DNA from: a virus
DNA: 64,000 nucleotides
Virus record (IMG/VR): IMGVR_UViG_3300046008_000242
Span: 62,001-126,000 of that record
Reading direction: 5' to 3' (one strand)
The notes beneath the pieces were generated by a model. That model worked only from the letters and a program-made list of their open reading frames with translations. It was not told the origin of the DNA and ran no database searches. Made by a program: the position numbers and the translations under genes. Positions 13,383 through 51,316 of this stretch are shown here, piece after piece. Every line of letters starts with the position of its first letter. The first letter of the stretch is position 1.

Positions 13383-14336
13383 TTACCTCGTTCTTTCTAA
13401 TGTTAGATCTAATGTAATTGGCACTTTCGATTCAACAATCGAGTACGTTATGGATATGTTATAATTATGTTCAACAATTTCCACAGAAATATCATTAACA
13501 TTTGCTCTGGGTTCATAATTTCTAATCACATCAGCAATGGTTCTTTTTATCAATAGATTGGTGACCAGAGAAGGTGTGTCGAATAATAAATTCATACATT
13601 GCGAACCAAGTTTGGAATTAAACGGACGTTCGAAATTGATGGTTTGGATTAAATGTTTTATGGAAGTAGATACGGCATTACTATTTGTTTTGAACATAAT
13701 GTCTGCTGGAGTAGCAAATCTATATTCCATATTGTTGGCATGAATGTTCCTACCAATAAGATACATTACAACATTTTGCATAATTTGTGAAATATCATCA
13801 CTTCTTGTTTTTATTGTGATGTAATCCATATTGTTGTAGATAGTCATCTCACCTTCTAAAGGTTCAAAATAAACACTAGACGGATCTATACCGATTATGT
13901 TATATGGTATCTTTGTACCATCAGGAACATTTTCCGTTTGTAACGTGAAAATTATCTCAGAACCTTCTTGTAATACATCAGCATTTACGTATAATGTATA
14001 TTTCTCATCTAGATTGTCCAATTTGGTGGAAGTGGTCGATGATGATTTAGAGGATAAATCTGTTCCAATTTTATCATACATTATGGTTGATGTTGAGAAT
14101 AAAGCTGGTACATATAGTTCTAATTCTGAATCAGAGATAATGTTTTTTATCTTACCGATAAATGAGTTACTTACGTAAAGATTATCATCTATTTTCAAAT
14201 ATCGAGTGAATTCTGTGTCTTTACCAACAACTATGTTAGATGAATTGTTATATGAAATTAAACCAACACCTTTATATCGTTCCAATGATGAAGGATTTGG
14301 TATTAATGTTAAATCTAGATCTTTGTATATTGTCAT
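13383..14336 (-). CDS. 25: Baseplate wedge protein, gp25-like with long N-terminal extension
   Basis: 317 residues. The C-terminal ~95 residues (SIKHLIQTINFERPFNSKLG, then NYEPRANVNDISVE) match gp25/IraD-like wedge proteins, including the conserved EPR motif. T4 gp25 has only 132 residues; here about 220 extra N-terminal residues with an Ig-like beta pattern precede the gp25 domain. Gp25 joins sheath contraction to the baseplate. It is the first gene of the minus late operon. No Shine-Dalgarno is obvious; a TAAATAAT late-type motif lies about 27 nt upstream. Confidence 0.8.
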   Translation of the reverse strand: MTIYKDLDLTLIPNPSSLERYKGVGLISYNNSSNIVVGKDTEFTRYLKIDDNLYVSNSFIGKIKNIISDSELELYVPALFSTSTIMYDKIGTDLSSKSSSTTSTKLDNLDEKYTLYVNADVLQEGSEIIFTLQTENVPDGTKIPYNIIGIDPSSVYFEPLEGEMTIYNNMDYITIKTRSDDISQIMQNVVMYLIGRNIHANNMEYRFATPADIMFKTNSNAVSTSIKHLIQTINFERPFNSKLGSQCMNLLFDTPSLVTNLLIKRTIADVIRNYEPRANVNDISVEIVEHNYNISITYSIVESKVPITLDLTLERTR

Positions 14337-14362: not shown

Positions 14363-14373
14363 ATTATTTAATG
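14363..14373 (-). promoter_or_regulatory. Possible late promoter (CATTAAATAAT)
   Basis: On the minus strand this reads CATTAAATAAT, about 27 nt upstream of the gp25-like start. It resembles the T4 late promoter TATAAATA and is nearly the same as motifs at 33639, 45418 and 49061 ahead of other virion genes. Inferred from repetition only. Confidence 0.4.
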
Positions 14374-14447
14374 CATTTCTCTAACATTTATAATATATCC
14401 ATTTTATGTGGATATATTGTTGATTAAACAATCTTTTCACTTTGACC

Positions 14448-14459
14448 CAATCAACTCTA
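14448..14459 (+). repeat. Conserved loop motif CAATCAACTCTA, copy 1
   Basis: One of eight copies of the 12-nt motif in the window. Flanks are CCATTTTATGTGG-type inverted sequence on the left and ATCATGTAAAATAAACGTTG on the right. The stem is poorer here than at 34104 or 51206. Confidence 0.6.
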
Positions 14460-14614
14460 CATCATGTAAAATAAACGTTGTATATAGTCCAAATATGGAT
14501 GTCTACTGTAAATATAACATATCGAAAGAGTCTTAATGTCAATAGATGAAGATGTTCGACATCGAAAGAGTAATCTTAGACATCGAGTATGTTATTAACA
14601 GAGTCTTAAACTCC

Positions 14615-14643
14615 TTTCGAAATCTCTAATACTCCATTATGAT
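14615..14643 (+). promoter_or_regulatory. Promoter of cassette A1
   Basis: TTTCGA (14615-14620), 17-bp spacer, TATGAT (14638-14643) followed by AGACTATGTCGATCC. The same layout recurs in all six cassettes. The start point would be near 14650. Confidence 0.65.
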
Positions 14644-14649
14644 AGACTA

Positions 14650-14818
14650 TGTCGATCCTTTGAGTTATGTTCTTTAGGTCATTTAATATTACTATATCAT
14701 AACTTAGACGTTTATTATTCATATTATAGACATTCATTTACAACAATATTCTCATATAAAATCTTTCGACTCCATTTAAGCATCCCACCAGATTAGTTTC
14801 TGAGTGGGATTTTTATTG
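14650..14818 (+). ncRNA. Putative small RNA A1 (~170 nt)
   Basis: This is the span between the predicted start point and the intrinsic terminator of unit A1. The 5' part (GTCGATCCTTTGAGTTATG) and the 3' AT-rich part (CATTTACAACAATATTC) are shared with units A2, B1 and, in part, B2. No conserved reading frame is present. An RNA product is inferred; it could instead be a terminated leader. Confidence 0.4.
14782..14818 (+). terminator. Intrinsic terminator of cassette A1
   Basis: ATCCCAC-CAGA pairs with TCTG-A-GTGGGAT and is followed by TTTTTATT. Confidence 0.85.
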
Positions 14819-14911
14819 TGTATAATTTACATTATAATAACATAGATTATTCCTTATAGCATCCATTATTTGCCCAATAATCCACTATAATGGAACGTTA
14901 TGTATACAGAG

Positions 14912-14923
14912 CAATCAACTCTA
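14912..14923 (+). repeat. Conserved loop motif CAATCAACTCTA, copy 2
   Basis: The flanks AACGTTATGTATACAGAG and CTCTATGTCATACATTTTTA can pair imperfectly around the loop. Confidence 0.6.
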
Positions 14924-15089
14924 TGTCATACATTTTTATCGTTGTTTAAACTCCAAATATATCCATCTTATGATAATTCAACATATCGAAAGAGTCTTAA
15001 GATGAATCCTTCGATGTTATTGATTCGTCTTAAGCATCGAAAGAGTAATCTTAGACATCGAGTATGTAAACATCAACGTCTTAAACTCC

Positions 15090-15118
15090 TTTCGAAATGG
15101 TAGAATATCCACTATGAT
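15090..15118 (+). promoter_or_regulatory. Promoter of cassette A2
   Basis: TTTCGA (15090-15095), 17-bp spacer, TATGAT (15113-15118). Confidence 0.65.
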
Positions 15119-15124
15119 AGACTA

Positions 15125-15302
15125 TGTCGATCCTTTGAGTTATATCCGTTGTCTGCATTTAATTGTTTTTAATATTACTAAGACTCTTATTATTCATTAA
15201 CTAATCATATTAAGACTATCATTTACAACAATATTCCCATATAAAATCCTTCGAACCTCATTTCATCCTGTTTAGAATAATATCTAAACAGGATTTTTTA
15301 TT
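15125..15302 (+). ncRNA. Putative small RNA A2 (~178 nt)
   Basis: Predicted transcript from the A2 promoter to its terminator. It shares the 5' GTCGATCCTTTGAGTTAT block and the 3' TTTACAACAATATTCCCATA block with A1 and B1. It has no ORF with a ribosome site. Existence is inferred. Confidence 0.4.
15265..15302 (+). terminator. Intrinsic terminator of cassette A2
   Basis: ATCCTGTTTAGA pairs perfectly with TCTAAACAGGAT, followed by TTTTTATT. The stem sequence is unrelated to that of A1, so the terminator function is kept without its sequence. Confidence 0.9.
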
Positions 15303-15396
15303 GGGCGCAATTTATCAATATCCAATCAAGAATATACATTAAACCATCTATTATTTGTCCAATAATCCACTCTAATGGAACATTCCATATATCATC

Positions 15397-15408
15397 CAAT
15401 CAACTCTA
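15397..15408 (+). repeat. Conserved loop motif CAATCAACTCTA, copy 3
   Basis: Flanked by CATATATCAT and ATGTATAATTTACG, which can form a short stem with one bulged T. Confidence 0.6.
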
Positions 15409-15563
15409 CATCATGTATAATTTACGTTGTTTAAACTCCAAATATAGATGTCTACTGTAAATTCAACACATCGAAAGAGTCTTAAGATGTTTCTTTCGAT
15501 ATCTTAATCATCGAAATAGTAATCTCAGACATCGAATGTGTAATATACAAGGAAAGATATTCC

Positions 15564-15592
15564 TTTCGAAATCTCTAATACTCCATTATGAT
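15564..15592 (+). promoter_or_regulatory. Promoter of cassette A3 driving the 15729 gene
   Basis: TTTCGA (15564-15569), 17-bp spacer, TATGAT (15587-15592). Confidence 0.65.
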
Positions 15593-15728
15593 AGACTATG
15601 TCGATCCTTTGAGTTATGTTCTTTAGGTCATTTAATATTATTATATTCTAGTGTAACTTAGACCCTTATTATACAATACATTTTATTGTAAATAATAGTA
15701 ACAATAACATATAATTAATGATAAAGGT

Positions 15729-16211
15729 ATGGTAGACATAAAATTCACTAATGTATATTCAGACGAATTGCTAGAGATATACATTAAGATGCGTAAGGCT
15801 AGATATGTTGGTTCCAATAAACATTATTCATCTAAGAGAGCAATAAAGAAACATCTTAAACATATTATCTTACAAAGAAGACAAACAGAAAATCTCTTGG
15901 ACATAATGATTATGACAATTGAAGATAAGATAGTCGGTATGAGTTTCCCTAGATTGACCAAAGATATCGATAAGATATTCTATGATATAGATACAACATG
16001 TATTAAGGTTGGTGCGATATTCGTGGATCCAGATTACAGGAATCAGAACATCGGATATGACGCATGTAGTCAGTTCTTTAAATTGTTCCCAGAATATACT
16101 AAGGTTTGGACTTCTAGAAAATGTAATACCGCGTCTATTGCTCTGGCATTAAAATTGGGATTTGAACGGACTCATGATAAAGGAGATTACGTTATCTTTA
16201 AAATGAGATAA
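15729..16211 (+). CDS. GNAT-family N-acetyltransferase
   Basis: 160 residues. The C-terminal half has the GNAT acetyl-CoA binding segment: VGAIFVDPDYRNQNIGYDA (about residues 95-112; R-x-x-x-x-G variant of motif A), then SIALALKLGFERTHDKGDY, the usual motif B ending. Such enzymes transfer an acetyl group from acetyl-CoA to an amine; the substrate cannot be told. It is the first gene after cassette array A, transcribed from the A3 promoter, and so probably expressed early. A host target, as for phage-encoded acetyltransferases that act on host proteins, is only a guess. Confidence 0.75.
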   Translation: MVDIKFTNVYSDELLEIYIKMRKARYVGSNKHYSSKRAIKKHLKHIILQRRQTENLLDIMIMTIEDKIVGMSFPRLTKDIDKIFYDIDTTCIKVGAIFVDPDYRNQNIGYDACSQFFKLFPEYTKVWTSRKCNTASIALALKLGFERTHDKGDYVIFKMR

Positions 16212-16217
16212 AATATC

Positions 16218-16245
16218 TTTCGATGATTGGGATAACATTTATAAT
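16218..16245 (+). promoter_or_regulatory. Promoter for the 16299 gene
   Basis: TTTCGA (16218-16223), 16-bp spacer, TATAATAGATTTC (from 16240). The leader AGATTTCAAGTTGG...CCAATGAATTTAAATCAA is nearly the same as that after the promoter at 33657. Confidence 0.75.
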
Positions 16246-16298
16246 AGATTTCAAGTTGGTGCACCAATGAATTTAAATCAATTATCTAAGGGGTTATT

Positions 16299-17163: not shown

Positions 17164-18354
17164 CTAATTCATATAGAATTTATCAACGGTATGTTTCAAT
17201 AATTTTTCTAATGCAATTTGTAATTCTAGCACATTTAAACCCCTTTTCCACTTTCTATCCACTTCCATTATACCAGTATAATTTGTTATATTATAAAAAT
17301 CCTTGATTTCTTTGATATATGAAATCAAGGATCGTTTATCATCTATTGATTTAAACACAGAACTAATCTCGTTTATTCTATATTCATATTCTTTTATCTC
17401 GATTTTACGCTCATCTAAATATTTATAGAACTTGACTGATCCTTCCTCCAGTTTTTCATCATCGACTTGTTTCCAATTAGAGTTATTAATCCCCATAATT
17501 TTACTTGGGTTGGTGACATTATATTTTTCTATATCATCTAGAATTTGTAGGACTAATGGTCTAGTAAATTTTATTTCCAAGATATGTTTCCTTATTTCTT
17601 TACATTCTGGAGTTTGCATATTACTAATGTAACCAGTTTTCTTAAAATTGGTATCTTTACCCTTTTGGATGCATTCTGGAGTTTGAGATGGAGTATAATA
17701 TCCAGTTCTTTCAAAACATGTATCTTTACGTTTTTGGATACATTCTGGATTTTTCATATTATGTGTATATCCGGTTTCCTCAAAATAACTTTGAGAATAT
17801 TGTTCTCTTAATTTCGGATTAGCTAAATTACTAGTGAATCCAGTTTTCTCAAAAACGATATCCTGTCGGGTTTGGATACGTTTTGGGTCTTTCATATAAT
17901 GAGTATATCCAGTTTTCTCAAAATGCGTATTTCTACATTTTTGGACACATTCTGGATTTTTCATATGATGATATGCACTTATTGATATCTTCAACTCTTC
18001 ATATTCTTCTTCGTTGATAAATTTATGTTTACCATCGGTGCATAATCGTCCAAATGCATGAATCATCTTAGCGTGTAAATTACGGGTTAATCCCATCTCT
18101 ATTAACAATTGGTGACATCTGTAATGTTCTCTTGCTGATAGATAGGCATAATTCAATTTATCAGTCACTCCACCCATCTTGAATGATCTAGGTAATATAT
18201 GATGTTCTTCTGCGTACCCTAAAATTACATCCGCTTCTTTTTTAGTGGATGCTCGAATCCTGGCATTAGATACGATGGAGATATACTCTGCTGTTTGTTC
18301 ATTATCTGAACATAATTCGATTATTTTATCGATATAGATATTATTGCTGGTCAT
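17164..18354 (-). CDS. HNH homing endonuclease with tandem ~25-residue DNA-binding-like repeats, copy 1
   Basis: 396 residues. The HNH site is in the N-terminal part: EEHHILPRSF (49-58), LNYAYLSAREHYRCHQLL. From about residue 130 to 270 run about six ~25-residue repeats (NPECIQKRKDTCFERTGY and variants), like the KxxxTxxExYG repeats in other phage HNH proteins. A unique C-terminal domain follows. AGGAATTTT precedes the ATG. The leader has a hairpin (18379-18408) and a TAAATAA motif, suggesting late expression. It abuts the PhoH remnant and is paralogous to the split copy at 21433-22760. Such enzymes cut DNA lacking the element and spread by repair. Confidence 0.8.
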   Translation of the reverse strand: MTSNNIYIDKIIELCSDNEQTAEYISIVSNARIRASTKKEADVILGYAEEHHILPRSFKMGGVTDKLNYAYLSAREHYRCHQLLIEMGLTRNLHAKMIHAFGRLCTDGKHKFINEEEYEELKISISAYHHMKNPECVQKCRNTHFEKTGYTHYMKDPKRIQTRQDIVFEKTGFTSNLANPKLREQYSQSYFEETGYTHNMKNPECIQKRKDTCFERTGYYTPSQTPECIQKGKDTNFKKTGYISNMQTPECKEIRKHILEIKFTRPLVLQILDDIEKYNVTNPSKIMGINNSNWKQVDDEKLEEGSVKFYKYLDERKIEIKEYEYRINEISSVFKSIDDKRSLISYIKEIKDFYNITNYTGIMEVDRKWKRGLNVLELQIALEKLLKHTVDKFYMN

Positions 18355-18854: not shown

Positions 18855-18910
18855 GTGGAACGTTTAATGTATATGTCAATCAACTCTACAGGATGTTTAT
18901 TTTAAATCAC
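18855..18910 (+). repeat. Solo conserved-loop element (CAATCAACTCTA, copy 7)
   Basis: The loop motif lies at 18877-18888. The left flank GTGGAACGTTTAATGTATAT and right flank GGATGTTTATTTTAAAT pair only partly. TCAATCAACTCTACAGGAT matches the perfect hairpin at 51206. This copy stands alone upstream of the nucleotidyltransferase gene and has no TTTCGA promoter. Confidence 0.55.
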
Positions 18911-19857: not shown

Positions 19858-20118
19858 ATGAAAGTTGTTGATTTATTTGATTATTTTAATGTGGTTGATT
19901 TTGGTAAACCTCAGGAACATGATGGTCTAGTCCATTATAAGATTAAACGTAACTTGGAACTTTATATTGACGGAGATTTGTACACCCATTACTATATACA
20001 AGATGACGTTGTTACGTTCTTTGGTGGTGAGTTCAATTTCGATATAGGTATAAAAGATAGTTTTAAAAATGATGTTATCGTTAAAAAAATTGGGTTGGGA
20101 TATAAAAATGTTATGTGA
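19858..20118 (+). CDS. Hypothetical protein
   Basis: 86 residues, unrecognised. Strand-rich and acidic, no membrane segment. GAGGAAATAAT precedes the ATG, 13 bp after the nucleotidyltransferase stop, so it is probably co-transcribed with it. Confidence 0.6.
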   Translation: MKVVDLFDYFNVVDFGKPQEHDGLVHYKIKRNLELYIDGDLYTHYYIQDDVVTFFGGEFNFDIGIKDSFKNDVIVKKIGLGYKNVM

Positions 20119-20190
20119 TAGAACACTTTCAAATATGAGATGTTGATATGTATATATTATGAACGTTGTTGATTTTAATTGAGGATTATT

Positions 20191-20517
20191 ATGATAACAT
20201 TATACGTAGGTAGACCAGAACTAATCGAAGAATGGATTGATTTAAATCATCATGGAATAATCCCAATTAAAAATTTCGGACACGATATGTATTATAAAGA
20301 TATATCGTTTGAAAGATTCAATGAATATAAAGATTGGATTATGTCCACTCAATCGATGGACGTAATAAACGAGTTTATACTGTTAGATAATCCTTCAAAT
20401 AAATTGATTAGGGTTGGTAAATCTTGTCTAACCTCAAATAATGGCAAATTGATTGGTACGGAATACACAAGAGAAGAGCTTCTTGTGATTTATAATGAAA
20501 ATTGGGAGATAAGATGA
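20191..20517 (+). CDS. Hypothetical protein
   Basis: 108 residues from MITLYVGR; TTGAGGATTATT before this ATG is the ribosome site, so an upstream TTG start is unlikely. Unrecognised. The sequence is alpha/beta-like with a SCLTSNNGKLIGTEYTREEL segment resembling small phage proteins of unknown role. Its stop overlaps the start of the next gene (ATGA), pointing to coupled translation. Confidence 0.6.
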   Translation: MITLYVGRPELIEEWIDLNHHGIIPIKNFGHDMYYKDISFERFNEYKDWIMSTQSMDVINEFILLDNPSNKLIRVGKSCLTSNNGKLIGTEYTREELLVIYNENWEIR

Positions 20518-20705
20518 AAGTAGAAGAACAATGGGTTAAGTTAGTTCCAGTTGATGGATTATATCATGTTGAATTATCATCAAGACAGGAAACAGAATCC
20601 GCCGGCATGAAATATATTATTAACAATAACAAGTTTTTAAACATTATGCATAATCATGATGTCAACACAACTTATTATTCATACTTTGCGAATGAAGATC
20701 TATAG
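20514..20705 (+). CDS. Hypothetical small protein
   Basis: 63 residues from MKVEEQWVKL, chosen because GGGAGATAAG lies just before it and it overlaps the previous stop. Unrecognised. It lies in an operon-like run 19858-21264. Confidence 0.5.
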   Translation: MKVEEQWVKLVPVDGLYHVELSSRQETESAGMKYIINNNKFLNIMHNHDVNTTYYSYFANEDL

Positions 20706-20712
20706 GGATTAC

Positions 20713-21264
20713 ATGAGTTTATTACAAACATTATGTACAAATAAAGAGATACAACAATTTCATATTTGGGACATAGACACATTACTTGAAAACGATTACT
20801 CCATTACACATAGAGTGTATATGACTTGTATCGGTTATTATGATATGTATAATGAAAAATTAGAATTGGAGATTGAAATCAAGGATAATTTATATCATAT
20901 CGAATTCCCAGAAGATGAACGACGAACATCATTTAAAACTGATTCTATCGATGATATTATAAATTCAATTAAACAAGAGTTTCCTGAAGAACAAGTTGAT
21001 GGATCTTTAGAATCACCGATATCTATTATCCAGGATTCATTAAAGGAAACTGGATATAATGTAAAGACGTATATCAATCCAAGACTAGATCCAATAATCA
21101 CTATCTCTATTGAAGGGAAAAATGATGGAGGATTTACATATTCACCATTATCTGTGAGTATAACTAAAGATAAATCTTATGTTGTTGAATATTCTAAAGA
21201 ATCTAATTCTATTGAATATATTCAGACATTATTACATGGTTTAATAACAAGATTCGGAGTTTAA
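20713..21264 (+). CDS. Hypothetical protein
   Basis: 183 residues from MSLLQTLC, preceded by AGGGATTAC; an upstream ATG frame would overlap the previous gene without a ribosome site. Unrecognised. Acidic, mixed alpha/beta, with a repeated beta pattern in the second half (ITISIEGKND...SVSITKDKSY). It is the last gene before a scrap region (21265-21432) and the second endonuclease. Confidence 0.6.
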   Translation: MSLLQTLCTNKEIQQFHIWDIDTLLENDYSITHRVYMTCIGYYDMYNEKLELEIEIKDNLYHIEFPEDERRTSFKTDSIDDIINSIKQEFPEEQVDGSLESPISIIQDSLKETGYNVKTYINPRLDPIITISIEGKNDGGFTYSPLSVSITKDKSYVVEYSKESNSIEYIQTLLHGLITRFGV

Positions 21265-21321
21265 ATGATTTTAATGACATAACAATACCATATGCATATA
21301 TTGATTATGACAGAAACACAT

Positions 21322-21377
21322 GGCGAACGTTCTAAATTAACCAAACAAAATGAAGATATTGATTGGAAATCCTTGTC
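21322..21377 (+). pseudogene. Nucleotidyltransferase gene fragment
   Basis: GGCGAACGTTCTAAATTA and the following ~35 bp encode GERSKLTKQNEDIDWKSLS, almost the same as GERSKLAKQNEGVDWKALS in the gene at 18927. Only about 19 codons remain. The rest of 21265-21432 holds a decayed copy of the terminator stem from 16701 (CGATACAG...CTGTATCG) and no gene. Confidence 0.75.
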
Positions 21378-21432
21378 AATCGATACAGTTAATTCTGTAT
21401 CGACTTGTTCGTTTTAATTCATATATGTGAAT

Positions 21433-22760
21433 CTAATTCATATAGAATTTATCAATAATATGTTTCAATAATTTTTCTAATCCATTTTGTAATTTTATCA
21501 CATTTAATCTCGTCCAGTTTCTGCTATTCGTTTCCATTATAACAATATGATTTGTTATGTTATAAAAATCCTTGATTTCTGAGATATACGAAATCAAGGA
21601 TTGTTTATCATCAGTGTATTTCAATGTAGAATTAATCTCGTTTATTCTACATTCGTATTCCTTTATCTTAATTTTACGTTCATCTAAATGTTTATAGAAC
21701 TTAACCGAACCTTCATATAGTTTTTCATAATCGACTTGTCTCCAATTAGGTCCATTAATTCCCATAATTTTTCTTGTATCGATAACGTTATATTTTTCTA
21801 TGTCTTGTTGAATCTGAAGAACTAATGGTCTAGCATATTTTATTTCCAAGATGTGTTTCTTCTTTTCTTTACATTCTGGAGTTTTCATATGATGTGTGTA
21901 CCAGTTTCCTCAAAACACGTATCTCTACGATTTTGGATACATTTTGGATCTTTCATATAATGAGTGTACCCAGTTTCCTCAAAACTAGAATCTCTGCGAT
22001 TTCGGATACATTCTGGATTTTGCATAGGATGATTGTATCCAGTTTTCTCAAAATACGTATCCTGACGCTTTTGGATACATTCTGGATTTTTACCAGGATT
22101 ATCGTATCCTGTTCTAGCAAAATGGGTATCTCTACTCTTTTGGATACATTCTGGATTTTGCATATTATGCGCGTATCCAGTTTTCTCAAAATATATTTGA
22201 GAATATTGTTCTCTTAATTCTGGATTGGCAAAATTACTAACATATCCAGTTTTCTTAAAATGGATATCTCTACTCTTTTGGACACATTCTGGATTTTTCA
22301 TATGATGAGTGTATCCAGTTTTCTTAAAATGGGTATCTCTACTCTTTTGGACGCATTCTGGATTTTTCATATGATGATATGCACTTATTGATATCTTCAA
22401 CTCTTGATATTCTTCTTCGGTCATGAATTTATGTTTACCATCTACGCATAATAATCCAAATCCGGAAATCATCTTAGCATGTAAATTACGTTTTAATCCC
22501 ATCTCTATTAACAGTTGATGGCATCTGTAATGTTCCCTTGCCGATAGATATGCATAATTCAATTTATCTGTTTCTCCACCCATCTTAAATGATCTAGGTA
22601 ATATATGGTGTTCTTCTGTATAACCTAAAATTGATTTTGCTTCTTTTTTAGTGGATGCTCTGATTCTGGCATTAGATACGATGGAGATATACTCTGCTGT
22701 TTGTTCATTATCTGAACATAATTCGATTATTTTATCGATATAGATATTATTGCTGGTCAT
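21433..22760 (-). pseudogene. HNH homing endonuclease copy 2, split by a one-base deletion
   Basis: This paralogue of 17164-18354 has an almost identical N-terminus, including HHILPRSF and EHYRCHQLL, and about eight ~25-residue NPECIQK..DT.FEKTGY repeats, two or three more than copy 1. Near 21900 a base is missing compared with the other repeats (GTGTACCAG against GTGTACCCAG). The first frame ends there at 21885 after 291 residues; the C-terminal domain continues in a second frame (21433-21888, 151 residues). It could be dead, an assembly error, or functional as an N-terminal fragment with HNH site and repeats. The upstream leader is shared with copy 1. Confidence 0.7.
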
Positions 22761-22784
22761 AAAATTCCTGTGAGTTTGATTAGA

Positions 22785-22826
22785 GACAACGGAAGGTCAC
22801 GCTTCGCGGTTGTCATTTTTTATTTA
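22785..22826. promoter_or_regulatory. Leader hairpin of endonuclease copy 2
   Basis: A GACAACGG...CGCGGTTGTC inverted repeat (22785-22814) is followed on the plus strand by ATTTTTTATTTAGTT. Sequence and distance to the start codon match the leader of copy 1. From here to 22969 I see no gene. Confidence 0.5.
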
Positions 22827-22969
22827 GTTGATTATCGCGTATTAAGAAGATGGAATAATGAATCGTTAAGTTCGACCAGAAATACATTATAAATGACATG
22901 GAAGAAATTGTGATTACCAAGGATTTTCGGACGCTGAACTTTCATCAGCAATTTAACAGAGGAACGAAA

Positions 22970-23029
22970 ATGACTTTACAAAAAAAGACCACAAAGAATG
23001 CACCTCAACATTTATCGGAGTTTAAATGA
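22970..23029 (+). CDS. Possible 19-residue leader peptide overlapping the RNase H start
   Basis: MTLQKKTTKNAPQHLSEFK: the ATG has a strong ribosome site (AGAGGAACGAAA) and its TGA overlaps the RNase H ATG (ATGA). The RNase H start itself has only GGAG about 8 nt upstream inside this ORF. Translational coupling is inferred. Confidence 0.4.
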   Translation: MTLQKKTTKNAPQHLSEFK

Positions 23030-23922
23030 TTTTAATTGATTTTAATGGGGTCGCGATGCCCCACGTAACAGCATTCAACGCAGATTTACGAACTAACGAT
23101 AAAGAACGAATCCTGGATCTATGTCGCCATACAATTTTGTCTCAATTACTTGTATATAAAAAGAAGTATGAACAAAAATATGGAGAAATGGTAATCTGTT
23201 TGGATGGTCGTAATTACTGGCGCAAACAAGAATTTCCTAATTACAAATCTAATCGCAAGAAGACTAAGGATGAGATGGTTGATTGGCAAATTGTATACGA
23301 TTGTCTTAATCAGATTAGAGATGAACTCAAGGCATTCTTTCCATTCAAGGTAATCTTTGTCAATGAAGCTGAAGCAGATGATACGATGGCTTTTTTAGTG
23401 GAATGGTCTCAGACAAATGACTTGAAAGAAGATCTATTGTATTCTGAACCAAAACCGATGATGGTCGTATCTAGCGATCATGATTTTTCACAACTTCAAA
23501 AGTATGATAATGTTGAACAATTCTCTCCATTCACAAAGAAATTGGTGAAATTCAATAAAAAAGAAATTCATGAAAAGCGAATGGAACATATCGTCAAAGG
23601 TGATAGTGGCGACGGTGTACCAAATCTACTAAGTGACGATAATGTATTTGTTGACAAAAGAAGACAATCTCCAATGACTCAAAAGAGATTGGCTGAATTC
23701 TTCGAGAAAGGAATAGATGCTTGTAAAAATGATATGGAACGACGGAACTACCAACGTAATCAAATGTTAGTAGACTTTGATTTTATCCCACAACGTGTTA
23801 AAGATAAGATCCTTGAAGAATACACTAATGCAAAACCCGTCAGAGATTTGAATTTGATTATGGAATACTTCATGAAAAACAAATGTCGTTTATTATTGGA
23901 AACTTTACAGGATTGGAAATGA
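23026..23922 (+). CDS. rnh: RNase H / 5'-3' exonuclease, T4 Rnh-like (FEN family)
   Basis: 298 residues, close to T4 RNase H (305). Metal-binding acidic motifs of the FEN family are visible: ILIDFNG at the N-terminus, VICLDG, EAEADDTMAFL about residue 115, SSDHDFSQL about residue 150, and GDSGDGVPN about residue 195. The enzyme removes RNA primers from Okazaki fragments and trims adjoining DNA. It starts one base inside the preceding leader peptide and overlaps the next gene by 4 bp. A second, unrelated RNase H (type HI) is at 38338. Confidence 0.9.
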   Translation: MILIDFNGVAMPHVTAFNADLRTNDKERILDLCRHTILSQLLVYKKKYEQKYGEMVICLDGRNYWRKQEFPNYKSNRKKTKDEMVDWQIVYDCLNQIRDELKAFFPFKVIFVNEAEADDTMAFLVEWSQTNDLKEDLLYSEPKPMMVVSSDHDFSQLQKYDNVEQFSPFTKKLVKFNKKEIHEKRMEHIVKGDSGDGVPNLLSDDNVFVDKRRQSPMTQKRLAEFFEKGIDACKNDMERRNYQRNQMLVDFDFIPQRVKDKILEEYTNAKPVRDLNLIMEYFMKNKCRLLLETLQDWK

Positions 23923-24206
23923 AAGTATTATCATTATATGGTTATTTCTTGTTACCAGATGATTTTGACGGAACAAGAGAAGATGCATTAGATTTATTTG
24001 TGGAGTATAGAAAGACTAAAGGGTACTCTGGTAATAAAACAGGGAAATTGTTAAACGACGATGAAGCATTAGATGTTTGGAGTTCATTTTTACAAGCTAC
24101 AGAAACTGGTGAATATAAATGGACTGGTGATATTAACGTATCGCAATTGATTGACGGAAAAATGGAACGTATTATTGACTCTGAACCTTTGGTGCAACAA
24201 GAATGA
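23919..24206 (+). CDS. Hypothetical protein
   Basis: 95 residues from MKVLSLYGYF, start overlapping the RNase H stop (ATGA) with AGGA 7 nt upstream. Unrecognised; acidic with DGTREDALDLFVEY and GKLLNDDEALDVW. Co-transcribed with rnh by position. Confidence 0.55.
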   Translation: MKVLSLYGYFLLPDDFDGTREDALDLFVEYRKTKGYSGNKTGKLLNDDEALDVWSSFLQATETGEYKWTGDINVSQLIDGKMERIIDSEPLVQQE

Positions 24207-24298
24207 AATTAACATACTGTGTATATTGTAGAAAAGAAATTTGTAAATGTGGTGGAGGATTCTCTCCCGATTTTGATATTAGACGAGTAAGGAAATAA
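24203..24298 (+). CDS. Tiny Cys-rich protein
   Basis: 31 residues: C-x2-C then C-x-C-GG (CVYCRKEICKCGGG), a possible zinc knuckle, with a basic end RRVRK. The start overlaps the previous stop (ATGA). Kept because of tight overlaps on both sides and the cysteine spacing. Confidence 0.45.
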   Translation: MKLTYCVYCRKEICKCGGGFSPDFDIRRVRK

Positions 24299-24299
24299 C

Positions 24300-24413
24300 A
24301 TGCCATTATTATTGTTTACCGTAGTAGCGGGTTTAGGATTATCTTATGCATTTCATTATATCGCAGATAATCATGAAAAGATTGAAGAATTGAGTAGAAA
24401 GGAAAGAAGTTGA
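24300..24413 (+). CDS. Small single-pass membrane protein
   Basis: 37 residues: a hydrophobic stretch LLLFTVVAGLGLSYAFHYIA followed by a charged tail NHEKIEELSRKERS. This fits a type of short phage inner-membrane protein; function unknown. GAGTAAGGAAATAAC upstream is a good ribosome site, and its stop overlaps the TTG of the next gene. Confidence 0.5.
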   Translation: MPLLLFTVVAGLGLSYAFHYIADNHEKIEELSRKERS

Positions 24414-24772
24414 ATCAAATTGAAATCATAGCAATAGCAGCTCATGAAACAATCAAGAAATTCTGTGATGAAAATGGAGAAACGACTAATCTCCATTGGA
24501 ATGAATGTCCAGAATGGCAGAAACACGCCGCTATAGCAAATGTTAAATTTGTATTGGAAACGGATAATGTAACAGATGAAATGTTACATGATTTCTGGAT
24601 GAAAGATAAATTAGAACACGGATGGAAACTTGGTGATGTAAAAGATACAGAATTGAAGATTCATCCTTGTCTGGTGCCATTTGAAGAAATATCTGAATAC
24701 CAACAGATGAAGGATAGATTGTTTATCAATACTGTCCAATTATTGGATAGTAAATCTTACGATTACAACTAA
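24410..24772 (+). CDS. RyR-domain protein
   Basis: 120 residues. The start is a TTG overlapping the previous stop (TTGA) with AAAGGAAAGAAG upstream; no better ATG fits. Residues about 45-105 carry the RyR pattern: HDFWMKDKLEHGWKLG, then HPCLVPFEEISEYQQMKDR. RyR domains occur in ryanodine receptors and, alone, in phages and bacteria, where they are thought to bind ligands or nucleotides. The phage role is unknown. It lies among small genes after rnh. Confidence 0.7.
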   Translation: MNQIEIIAIAAHETIKKFCDENGETTNLHWNECPEWQKHAAIANVKFVLETDNVTDEMLHDFWMKDKLEHGWKLGDVKDTELKIHPCLVPFEEISEYQQMKDRLFINTVQLLDSKSYDYN

Positions 24773-24800
24773 ATAAAGTTTTGAGTATAGGAAAATATAA

Positions 24801-25097
24801 ATGAGTGAAATTGAAAATGAGATCCTTGAAAAAGGATTAACTGCTCCACGGATTACACCAGAGCATATTGAATCTGTTATTGAAAAGGAAGATTACTACG
24901 TATTTCCTGATACATGTCTGACTGTATGTTGTCTTACATTATCTAATGGATTTAATGTAACAGGAGAAAGTGCTTGTGCATCTCCAGAAAACTTCAACAA
25001 AGAACTTGGTCAGAAGATCGCTAGATCTAACGCAAAGAGTAAGATTTGGGTTCTGGAAGGATATCTTTTGAAGGAGAGATTGAAAGATGGCAACTAA
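24801..25097 (+). CDS. Gp49-family phage protein (N4 gp49 / Sf6 gp66 type)
   Basis: 98 residues. PRITPEHIESVIEKEDYY, then TLSNGFNVTGESACASPENF and KIARSNAKSKIWVLEGYLL match the Gp49 family pattern (NGF.VTG.SACVSP.NF...A..KIW.LEGYLL). The family is widespread in phages and of unknown function. GAGTATAGGAAAATATAA precedes the ATG. It overlaps the next gene by 11 bp. Confidence 0.8.
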   Translation: MSEIENEILEKGLTAPRITPEHIESVIEKEDYYVFPDTCLTVCCLTLSNGFNVTGESACASPENFNKELGQKIARSNAKSKIWVLEGYLLKERLKDGN

Positions 25098-33656: not shown

Positions 33657-33684
33657 TTTCGATGTCAAAGATAACCTTTATAAT
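33657..33684 (+). promoter_or_regulatory. Promoter for the 33745 gene
   Basis: TTTCGA (33657-33662), 16-bp spacer, TATAATAGATTTC (from 33679); leader shared with 16240. Confidence 0.75.
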
Positions 33685-33744
33685 AGATTTCAAGTTGGAA
33701 GAATCCAATGAATTTAAATCAAACATTTTATAGAGGTCATTATC

Positions 33745-34062: not shown

Positions 34063-34103
34063 TGCGTAAAGGTTTCTTATATCATACATTATTTGCTCGT
34101 TAA

Positions 34104-34179
34104 TGGACTCTAGTGGAATCTTCCGTATATTATCCAATCAACTCTATGTTATGTATAATTTACGTTCCACTAGAGTCCA
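34104..34179 (+). repeat. Long stem-loop with conserved loop, copy 4
   Basis: TGGACTCTAGTGGAA (34104-34118) is the exact inverted repeat of TTCCACTAGAGTCCA (34165-34179). An inner stem (CGTATATTA with TGTATAATTTACG, imperfect) holds the loop CCAATCAACTCTATG. Confidence 0.75.
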
Positions 34180-34312
34180 ATATAGTGTATTTCATTGTAA
34201 TGTCAACATATCGAAGGATTTGCATGAATACTCTTTCGATACATTAAACATCGAAAGAGTCTTATCGGTAATCTATAACATCGAATGTGTATCTATCAAT
34301 ATCCGAAACTCC

Positions 34313-34341
34313 TTTCGAAATCTCTAATACTCCACTATGAT
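34313..34341 (+). promoter_or_regulatory. Promoter of cassette B1
   Basis: TTTCGA (34313-34318), 17-bp spacer, TATGAT (34336-34341). Confidence 0.65.
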
Positions 34342-34347
34342 AGACTA

Positions 34348-34520
34348 TGTCGATCCTTTGAGTTATGTTCTTTAGGTGGCATTAATATTACTATATTATA
34401 TTCTAGTGTAACTTAGACGTTTATTATTCATATTATAGACATTCATTTACAACAATATTCCCATATAAAATCCTTCGATCCAGATCCCGTTGAGAACACC
34501 CGTTCCTTCGGGATTTTTAT
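34348..34520 (+). ncRNA. Putative small RNA B1 (~172 nt)
   Basis: From the predicted start to the terminator. It is most like A1 in its 5' (GTCGATCCTTTGAGTTATGT) and 3' (CATTCATTTACAACAATATT) parts. Inferred, not shown. Confidence 0.4.
34484..34520 (+). terminator. Intrinsic terminator of cassette B1
   Basis: ATCCCG...GAAC pairs with GTTC...CGGGAT, then TTTTATT. Confidence 0.8.
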
Positions 34521-34614
34521 TGGATACAATTTGACAAACATCACGGTATCAATATACATAAACAATCATTATTTGGACGTTAATCCATCCTAATGGAACG
34601 TCCTGTATATTATC

Positions 34615-34626
34615 CAATCAACTCTA
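34615..34626 (+). repeat. Conserved loop motif CAATCAACTCTA, copy 5
   Basis: AACGT on the left and ACGTT on the right can close the stem; inner pairing is weak. Confidence 0.55.
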
Positions 34627-34758
34627 TGTCATATAGAATAAACGTTGCATACAATCCAAATATAGATGTCTATGTTAATTCAACATATCGAAACAGTCTT
34701 CATGTATTCTTTCGATATGTTAATCATCGAGCTTGTTATAATCAGTTAAAGATACTCC

Positions 34759-34787
34759 TTTCGAAATCGATAAAACTCCATTATACT
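34759..34787 (+). promoter_or_regulatory. Promoter of cassette B2
   Basis: TTTCGA (34759-34764), 17-bp spacer, TATACT (34782-34787). Confidence 0.6.
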
Positions 34788-34793
34788 AGACTA

Positions 34794-34968
34794 TGTCGAC
34801 GTTTTGAGTTATATCCGTTGTTTACATTTAGATGGTTTAATATTACCAAGCGTCTTCTATATGTGTATTATACATTAAACTAATCATATTAAGACATTCA
34901 TTTACAGTTAAAATATTTCGACTCCAGATCCCGTTGAGAACCAAAAAGTTCCTTCGGGATTTTTATTA
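34794..34968 (+). ncRNA. Putative small RNA B2 (~175 nt)
   Basis: Predicted promoter-to-terminator span; keeps TTTGAGTTAT near the 5' end but lacks the TATTCCCATA part seen in A2 and B1. Inferred. Confidence 0.35.
34928..34968 (+). terminator. Intrinsic terminator of cassette B2
   Basis: ATCCCG...GAAC pairs with GTTC...CGGGAT, then TTTTATTA; near-copy of the B1 terminator. Confidence 0.8.
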
Positions 34969-35061
34969 GATTCAATTTATCAATATCCAACCAAGAACAT
35001 TCCTTATAACATCCATTATTTGTCCAATAATCCATCTTAATGGAATGTCCCATATATCATC

Positions 35062-35073
35062 CAATCAACTCTA
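35062..35073 (+). repeat. Conserved loop motif CAATCAACTCTA, copy 6
   Basis: Context CATATATCAT-loop-TGTCATGTAAAATAAACG, as in copy 3. Confidence 0.55.
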
Positions 35074-35228
35074 TGTCATGTAAAATAAACGAACAATAGT
35101 AGACAAATATAGATGTTCCTTGTAAATTTAACATATCGAAAGAGTCTTAAGACAATTCCTTTGATGTTATTGGTGTCGAAAGAGTAATCTTAGACATCGA
35201 GTGTGTAATATACATGGAAAGATACTCC

Positions 35229-35257
35229 TTTCGAAAACATAGAAACTCCACTATGAT
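35229..35257 (+). promoter_or_regulatory. Promoter of cassette B3 driving the 35389 gene
   Basis: TTTCGA (35229-35234), 17-bp spacer, TATGAT (35252-35257). Confidence 0.65.
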
Positions 35258-35388
35258 AGACTATGTCGATCCTTTGAGTTATATCCATTAGGTGGTTTTA
35301 ATATTACTTTATTATATTCTAGTGTATTCCTCGACATAATAATCACTATATAACCATATACAATAAACAAATAATCATATAGGAACAA

Positions 35389-35883
35389 ATGGAACAATTA
35401 TCCTTAAATCAATATCTTTCTGTTATCTCATCATTATATTTTCTTTCAGACACTCAAAATGTTGGTGGAATCCCAGAACATTTCTTTTCAGATATTAATG
35501 AACAATTAAACATCAGTTCACCGAAAGGAATTAGACAATGGTTCAAAGACAATCTTAGATCTAAGGGATTCTATAACATACCAAAGATAGAAGAAGATGT
35601 AGAAGATATTGTCAGAAAAATCATCCGTCTTAGAAAAGAATACGTCCCAGTTGAAACTATTACAATTCAATGTAATAAGGCTATTCGAAATCCCAACAAG
35701 GAAATTCGATTCAATGATAATACAACAAAGAAGATTGATAAACGAACATTGAAAGAATTGTATTCAATTTTAACAGATGAATATATTAAACCAGAACACA
35801 AATTAGAATTACAGAATTACGCAGCTGAATCTTATGACAACATATTGAAAATTGTTGAAACAAACCGATTGGTGATGAAATGA
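35389..35883 (+). CDS. Hypothetical protein, paralogue of the 37140 gene
   Basis: 164 residues, helical. SLNQYLSVISSLYFLSD at the start, then FNDNTTKKIDKRTLKELYSI, YIKPEHKLELQNYAAESYDN and ILKIV line up with the protein at 37140 (FLSVVATFYYKSD; FNDGTSRKVD; RIKPDTRMQFQEYCKESF). The family is not recognised. Transcribed from cassette B3; its stop overlaps a tiny membrane protein gene. Confidence 0.65.
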   Translation: MEQLSLNQYLSVISSLYFLSDTQNVGGIPEHFFSDINEQLNISSPKGIRQWFKDNLRSKGFYNIPKIEEDVEDIVRKIIRLRKEYVPVETITIQCNKAIRNPNKEIRFNDNTTKKIDKRTLKELYSILTDEYIKPEHKLELQNYAAESYDNILKIVETNRLVMK

Positions 35884-36015: not shown

Positions 36016-36744
36016 TTAGAATAAATTTTCTGTTAATTGTTTTTCTGAACAAGATAATTGAGGGTGTTGTGAATATCCATGGGATACCATATAATCCTCT
36101 ATTGTCTTAAATACAATTCCTCTATTACCAGAGGATGTCAATAAAGCTGCGGTGAATGCTCCTTGATATTTTCCATCAATGAATGCGTCTGCAGCAGTCT
36201 CAGAATCTTTAGCTGCAGAAAAACATATTACATTATCTACATTAGAAATGTTAAATGGAGTTTTATTATTAACATTTTCTAAAGGTGATGGTATGTATCT
36301 CGAAACATTTGAATTTAGTTTTAATTCCCTAGTCAATGAACCAGAATGACAACAATCCATTAAACATGTTATCTCAACATTAGGATATTTCGAGAAGATT
36401 TGTTGTAATTCATCGTCTGTGATATAATTGTTAGACCATTTACCATTTGAATCAATTAGGTCGTATGGACATAAGATTTCGGTTAACCCATCATCTTCTG
36501 TTCCATTATCGCAAGGAACTTGAGAACCATGACCTGAATAATGGAATACAAATTTACCAACGGAATTAGATAACAATTCCTCTAGATTACGAATAATCTC
36601 AGATTTGGTTGCCCGTTCATCATGTAACCTAATTACATCATATCCATATTGTTTCAATTCGAACGCTATATGTTCTGAATCATTGATACATCCTCGTAAC
36701 GGAGCTGTATTATATTTGTTGATTGCCACTGATAATGCTTTCAT
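36016..36744 (-). CDS. Caspase-like cysteine protease (metacaspase type, peptidase C14)
   Basis: 242 residues forming a complete caspase-fold domain: RGCINDSEHIAFELKQYGYD near the start, YSGHGSQ with His72, EDDGLTEILCPYD, then LMDCCHSGS with the catalytic Cys132, and late CFSAAKDSETAAD and GAFTAALL segments. Both catalytic residues are kept. Metacaspases cleave after Arg/Lys; in prokaryotes such proteins mostly act in defence or regulated death. It stands alone on the minus strand with its own promoter (36759-36786), ribosome site (AGGAGATTAAA) and terminator, between two paralogous plus genes. This looks like an added (moron-type) gene. The target is unknown. Confidence 0.88.
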   Translation of the reverse strand: MKALSVAINKYNTAPLRGCINDSEHIAFELKQYGYDVIRLHDERATKSEIIRNLEELLSNSVGKFVFHYSGHGSQVPCDNGTEDDGLTEILCPYDLIDSNGKWSNNYITDDELQQIFSKYPNVEITCLMDCCHSGSLTRELKLNSNVSRYIPSPLENVNNKTPFNISNVDNVICFSAAKDSETAADAFIDGKYQGAFTAALLTSSGNRGIVFKTIEDYMVSHGYSQHPQLSCSEKQLTENLF

Positions 36745-51166: not shown

Positions 51167-51205
51167 CCTTAAATTTACAATATAATAATGTTTAAATGGA
51201 TTATA

Positions 51206-51261
51206 ATGCTCGTTTATAATATATGTCAATCAACTCTACAGGATATATTATAAACGAGCAT
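51206..51261 (+). repeat. Solo perfect stem-loop with conserved loop (copy 8)
   Basis: ATGCTCGTTTATAATATAT (51206-51224) is the exact inverted repeat of 51243-51261, around the loop GTCAATCAACTCTACAGG. A TATAAT lies at its left edge (51202). This is the clearest form of the element that also opens each cassette. The DNA between 51167 and 51348 holds no gene. Confidence 0.8.
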
Positions 51262-51316
51262 TAAACGACAAATAAGATGGATAAAATAACATCTTTTATA
51301 AGATAGTAAAAACGAT

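Follow-up and report, generated by a model that had tools for sequence, protein, structure and literature searches.

Candidate early-promoter cassettes form tandem arrays at synteny breakpoints in a T4-like phage genome

Promoter-early stem-loops (PeSLs), in which a sigma70 promoter is combined with a terminator, are repeated composite elements that lie beside accessory genes and act as exchange points between genomes. They are said to have been described by Arbiol in 2010 and by Comeau, Arbiol and Krisch in 2014, in RB49/phi1, T4/PST and KVP40/nt-1. A stretch of RB49 has several gaps of ~100 bp, one per gene, in which a terminator or short spacer leads directly into TTGACA-N17-TATAAT with an ATG ~45 nt further on, and these gaps we take to be the published PeSLs. 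In the group II T4-like Campylobacter phages CP21, CP220 and CPt10, intergenic tandem repeats of 1-2.9 kb (repeat regions RR1-RR4) split the genome into modules that are inverted between related phages; the number of repeat units varies and single units are found elsewhere (PMC4546147). These units are 72-86 bp long with the core AAACTTAAAGCAA, and the text makes no mention of promoters (PMC4546147); the units in the CP21 region that we inspected are 85 bp. Repeated intergenic sequences of 29-58 bp in the halovirus HF2 are, according to the abstract, proven promoters (PMC8707807).

The cassettes described here were found in a 64,000-nucleotide stretch of DNA (the window), corresponding to bases 62001-126000 of the 249,362-base virus record G000; positions are those of the window unless G000 or G002, a related phage, is named. 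To judge from its genes, G000 is a T4-like phage, with a gp6-type baseplate protein that shares 39.5% identity with its counterpart in Methylophilales phage Melnitz, and with a T4-type terminase, tail sheath and ATP-dependent ligase. As in PeSLs, a sigma70-like promoter is coupled to a stem-loop terminator, the element is repeated beside variable accessory genes (seven arrays; GNAT, small unknown genes, a ligase operon) and genomes differ at the copies, the breakpoints at arrays A1 to A6 pointing to recombination between copies. Unlike the RB49 PeSL-type gaps, the units are 430-485 bp long, stand in gene-less tandem rows and contain, besides a large region of phased boxes, a conserved head, a conserved start-site core and a long leader, and the breakpoints move whole core-gene blocks. 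Whereas PeSLs are compact and occur one per gene, here a terminator is followed by ~85 bp, a head and ~155 bp of boxes before the next promoter. As in the CP21-type regions, tandem repeats lie at module borders, and the 28-kb block between A1 (minus strand) and A2 (plus strand) is inverted in G002, but the units are much longer and have motifs other than the AAACTTAAAGCAA core. The HF2 repeats differ in being those of an archaeal virus, and tandem cassettes with terminators do not appear in that abstract (PMC8707807).

The cassettes are best read as a large tandem relative in kind of PeSLs that also resembles the CP21 repeat regions, while being a sequence member of neither. The initial annotation, made from the window alone, recognized no described T4-like element with this layout and so overlooked both PeSLs and the module-separating repeats of CP21 and CP220. 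A search of 50,697 phage records with array A gave no match, hence none to known PeSLs; no convincing sequence relative of the array or its promoter was found in known phages, and Rfam, at the gathering threshold, had no matches in the window.

Anatomy and distribution of the arrays

Array A consists of three tandem non-coding units that begin near 14447, 14911 and 15396. From start to start they are 464 and 485 bp apart by the CAATCAACTCTA head motif and 475 and 474 bp apart by the promoter. The features of the array and its flanks are:

13383-14336, minus strand: gene for a 317-aa baseplate wedge protein, divergent left flank of array A
14385-15728, plus strand: array A, three tandem non-coding cassettes
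14448-14459, plus strand: unit 1 head motif CAATCAACTCTA
14521-14568, plus strand: unit 1 ATCGAAAG boxes, at 14521-14528 and 14561-14568
14615-14643, plus strand: unit 1 predicted promoter, -35 TTTCGA at 14615-14620, 17-nt spacer, -10 TATGAT at 14638-14643
14644-14655, plus strand: unit 1 start-site core AGACTATGTCGA, an imperfect palindrome, with the predicted start near 14650
14782-14817, plus strand: unit 1 predicted intrinsic terminator
14912-14923, plus strand: unit 2 head motif
15090-15118, plus strand: unit 2 predicted promoter, -10 TATGAT at 15113-15118
15265-15301, plus strand: unit 2 predicted terminator, its sequence unlike that of unit 1
15397-15408, plus strand: unit 3 head motif
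15564-15592, plus strand: unit 3 predicted promoter, -10 TATGAT at 15587-15592, with no terminator before the next gene
15729-16211, plus strand: gene for a 160-aa GNAT acetyltransferase behind array A

The initial annotation had described three tandem non-coding cassettes, the first two ending in different terminators to give short RNAs and the third running into a coding gene, and this description is borne out in each part. All three units have an exact TTTCGA-N17-TATGAT and none is an open frame, hairpins followed by U-runs end near 14817 and 15301, giving predicted RNAs of ~165 and ~174 nt, and the terminator-less third unit leads into the GNAT gene. The window has six copies of GTCGATCCTTTGAGTTAT when up to 3 mismatches are allowed, with 0.09 expected; the 23 copies of CAATCAACTCTA at up to 2 mismatches compare with 11.4 expected, a signal that rests on the exact copies.

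The cassette is not local to the window. With array A as query, 25 places matched in the G000 record, and mapping of heads, promoters, terminators and ORFs across G000 stretches assigned ~25 full units to seven main arrays, with both strands represented:

A1, G000 9.6-12.0 kb, minus strand
A2, G000 39.9-40.7 kb, plus strand
A3, window 14385-15728, plus strand: array A
A4, window 34070-35388, plus strand: array B, three cassettes with head motifs at 34135, 34615 and 35062 and -10 boxes at 34336, 34782 and 35252; the gene behind it (35389-35883, plus strand) encodes a 164-aa protein
A5, G000 136.9-138.7 kb, plus strand
A6, G000 175.5-177.0 kb, minus strand
A7, G000 209.4-211.0 kb, minus strand

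Most last units run into genes, which encode the GNAT protein (array A), the 164-aa protein (array B), an AAA protein and ligase (A6), and small unknown proteins (A1, A5, A7). In both phages the last unit of A2 faces the terminase gene instead, its promoter aimed into the 3′-end of the large subunit gene (L022, G000 40.6 kb; L085, G002 73.9 kb), which could give rise to early RNA antisense to a late gene. One HNH endonuclease gene is adjoined by a cassette terminator rather than by a promoter.

Outside the main arrays, a full unit and another head lie near G000 43.6-44.1 kb, and there are single heads elsewhere. The head motif CAATCAACTCTACAGGAT is solitary at 51204-51263, and also at 18877 and at G002 197271, in each case a short way ahead of ORFs and with no cassette promoter; at 51204-51263 it lies in the loop between the arms of a perfect 21-bp stem. 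Within arrays, the head arms mostly do not match each other. A second dispersed promoter-like motif, TATAATAGATTTCAAGTTGG, often 3′ of a CTTTCGATG box, precedes small genes at 16240-16259, 33679-33698 and several more sites in G000 and G002.

Promoters, phased boxes and predicted transcripts

Units from the G000 and G002 stretches were aligned on AGACTATGTCGA alone, with TTTCGA, TTGACT or TTGCCT taken as -35 and TANNNT as -10. All 48 true copies of the core, 24 per phage, have a -35 box and a -10 box separated by exactly 17 nt, an arrangement from which a sigma70-like promoter is predicted. Four further AGACTATGTCGA hits were set aside, three being one-mismatch chance matches and one a wrong-strand reading of an inverted core. 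In units with TTGACT or TTGCCT at -35, a TTTCGA box is mostly present 6 bp further downstream (for example, TTGACTTTTCGA); as TTTCGA reappears when the -35 changes, both are evidently kept. The core is itself an imperfect palindrome and, in the G000 unit at 10.68 kb (locus L021, around 10.48 kb), the 17-bp start-site core GATAGACTATGTCGATC is exactly inverted in place, a change that would presumably be better tolerated by a dimeric DNA-binding site than by an RNA signal.

Upstream of the promoter, TCGA boxes occur ~20-21 bp apart, mostly near -56, -76, -96 and -118 relative to the -10 in G002 and near -55, -76, -91 and -116 in G000, so that the main boxes are separated by ~two helical turns. 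TCGA density is 20 per kb in the units and 3.5 per kb in the window, and 37 of the 66 genomic copies of ATCGAAAG fall within the arrays, which make up 4.4% of the record. The distance from the head to the -35 is 123, 132-135, 143-145, 153-156, 164-166 or 176 bp, with one exception at 150, and the step between these classes is ~10.7 bp, one helical turn (P = 4e-5 on 10 distinct values, or ~0.02 by our own estimate if only about five size classes count as independent). Such one-turn steps suggest a DNA-bound protein. Slippage between boxes was rejected as the source of 10-11 bp steps, the commonest box spacings being 15-16, 20-22 and 24-25 bp, which do not readily produce them. The head was also considered as a second promoter, either forward and T4-middle-like or on the reverse strand, and rejected since boxes and spacings were, by eye, inconsistent across copies. 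A search for MotA gave no match, and the controls were likewise silent.

The density and phasing of the TCGA boxes would be compatible with titration of a factor and, together with a conserved head that is also found alone and in places forms a strong hairpin, raise the idea that the arrays are clusters of binding sites, serving as promoter-primed replication origins, in repressor titration, or as partition or packaging sites. We consider this very improbable, since the seven arrays are scattered over both strands and genes follow most of them; no origin-like feature came to notice.

Hairpins followed by U-runs end 26 internal units, 144-193 nt after the predicted start, a range that leaves out one weak terminator call at 233 nt. 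The terminators have several unrelated sequences that all conform to this pattern. Upstream of them, the leader bodies lack structure (mean z of -0.09 and +0.29), and alifold found no consensus fold in heads or leaders, so a conserved RNA fold was rejected for both. The transcribed body beyond ~+20 is alike within a phage and hardly so between phages, with 56% identity between G000 and G002 as against 51% for shuffled sequence, and there is no conserved hidden reading frame, none of 44 units being open throughout. The initial annotation had placed conservation in the regulatory and transcribed parts and not in any ORF, and had named a conserved coding frame as evidence that would count against it; the regulatory parts and the lack of an ORF stand, while conservation of the transcribed body between phages does not. 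With leaders unstructured, near chance in cross-phage identity and closed to translation, selection seems to act on the starting and stopping of transcription and not on the RNA.

These observations bear on the proposal that the units are genes for trans-acting small regulatory RNAs of 145-190 nt, with the arrays raising their dose. The predicted RNA length is kept in both phages and every internal unit carries a promoter and a terminator of its own, as such genes would require, but bodies with neither structure nor much sequence conservation between phages, and terminator hairpins that are freely swapped, make this improbable. The regulatory RNAs offered as one possibility in the initial annotation are likewise weakened; the comparative data agree in silico with its promoter-RNA-terminator cassettes and with its suggestion that they multiply the sites at which early transcription begins.

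A related phage and breakpoints at the arrays

The core was recovered elsewhere by pattern scans of IMG/VR, in small fragments and in two large contigs: G002, of 234.7 kb, and G001, of 149 kb, which is apparently much the same virus as G002. There are at least 20 full, diverged units in G002, and heads and promoters are 72-74% identical between G000 and G002. In G002, too, an array has the 317-aa baseplate wedge gene on its left; five units there replace the three of G000 and the right flank differs, with ligase next in place of GNAT. The G002 ortholog of the 164-aa gene likewise follows an array, whose left flank differs from that in G000. Beyond the G001/G002-type contigs and fragment L096, those CAATCAACTCTA matches in other viral contigs that were inspected look like chance or coding sequence. 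The promoter core TTGACN-N17-TATRNTAGACTATG turns up commonly elsewhere among viral contigs (IMG/VR, loci L098-L233), many of them unrelated-looking, with many matches in non-coding sequence and one large group that looks coding; among cellular genomes, a longer form ending in TCG occurs in only three Clostridium contigs. The recurrence suggests that a promoter whose start-site sequence is fixed is widespread in phages; the core thus appears to be a promoter type that phages share, with the tandem arrangement of boxed cassettes as the distinctive part.

Synteny between G000 and G002 breaks at A1-A6, six of the seven arrays, and A7 is intact. The window runs colinear with G002 89.5-103.9 kb (plus strand) as far as base 14373, at the start of array A; between 15685 and ~33.0 kb it matches G002 from 160.9 down to 144.9 kb (minus strand; bases 20001-24999 lay outside this search) and, from 34754 within array B, it matches G002 from 196.8 down to 168.8 kb (minus strand). 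Large breaks in the window were seen at two places only, 14.37-15.69 kb and 33.0-34.75 kb, and both coincide with arrays (A and B), which occupy ~4% of the window; this lay beyond the reach of the initial annotation. Elsewhere, the flanks of A5 and A6 are exchanged between the two genomes. No other large breaks were seen in the ~190 kb examined, in part at the gene level only; small gene moves exist, for example of a gene at 199.7 kb.

Two further features were noted in the window. Paralogous repetitive genes with KNPECVQK/FEKTGY repeats lie at 17164-18354 and 21433-22760, the latter copy divided between two frames; several of these copies are matched by one and the same G002 gene. The minus-strand gene at 36016-36744 encodes a protein that by eye is caspase-like (FHYSGHGSQ and DCCHSG motifs), is conserved in G002 and has no PHROG match.

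With most arrays at breakpoints, unit number variable and units that look mosaic, the arrays might be mainly recombination or spreading repeats, either selfish or favoured for gene shuffling, in which the promoters matter little. Plain repeats would, however, lose the promoter spacing, the paired -35 replacement and the helical phasing that are kept in 44-48 units and two phages, and we give this explanation little credence.

A probable role in early transcription and genome re-ordering

The reading that we favour, and consider probable, is that the arrays are early-promoter cassettes that also serve as recombination sites. Each unit would be a complete transcription-start cassette, in which a ~200-bp regulatory region, with the conserved head and several TCGA boxes, many ~two helical turns apart, extends down to a host sigma70-type promoter, followed by the imperfectly palindromic core over the start site and a ~130-nt untranslated leader. 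Host RNA polymerase would start at each core, probably under the control of a phage or host DNA-binding protein that occupies one DNA face of the boxes and sets the timing of the promoter. In internal units the leader would stop at the intrinsic terminator, yielding mainly short, dispensable RNAs, whereas the last unit would express the operon behind it, in most cases with a leader that enters early or accessory genes. As the cassettes are repeated in both orientations, phage homologous recombination could pair them, changing unit number, swapping the genes behind arrays and inverting or moving whole gene blocks, and exchange at the arrays would keep a promoter beside each operon while gene order shifts.

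Several observations count against this reading. With terminators between tandem promoters, internal units should add little to expression of the downstream gene, and the presence of multiple tandem units per array lacks an explanation in it. One array ends antisense into terminase, and the HNH gene is adjoined by a terminator. Rearrangement at arrays may also be a by-product of repetition. A more far-reaching version, to which we assign a modest chance, is that a phage-coded protein bound to the phased TCGA boxes and head, as a filament or loop, switches many dispersed early promoters in concert, with tandem rows kept since module re-ordering by recombination then never parts an operon from its promoter; this would be a new class of early regulatory element.

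Early-promoter cassettes that double as recombination sites would tie to one element the early-promoter logic and the genome re-ordering of large T4-like phages, which are usually studied apart, and would extend the PeSL idea from compact single cassettes to tandem arrays that border core-gene blocks. This reading predicts where breakpoints will be located in relatives, and the helical phasing would provide a direct handle for finding the regulator.
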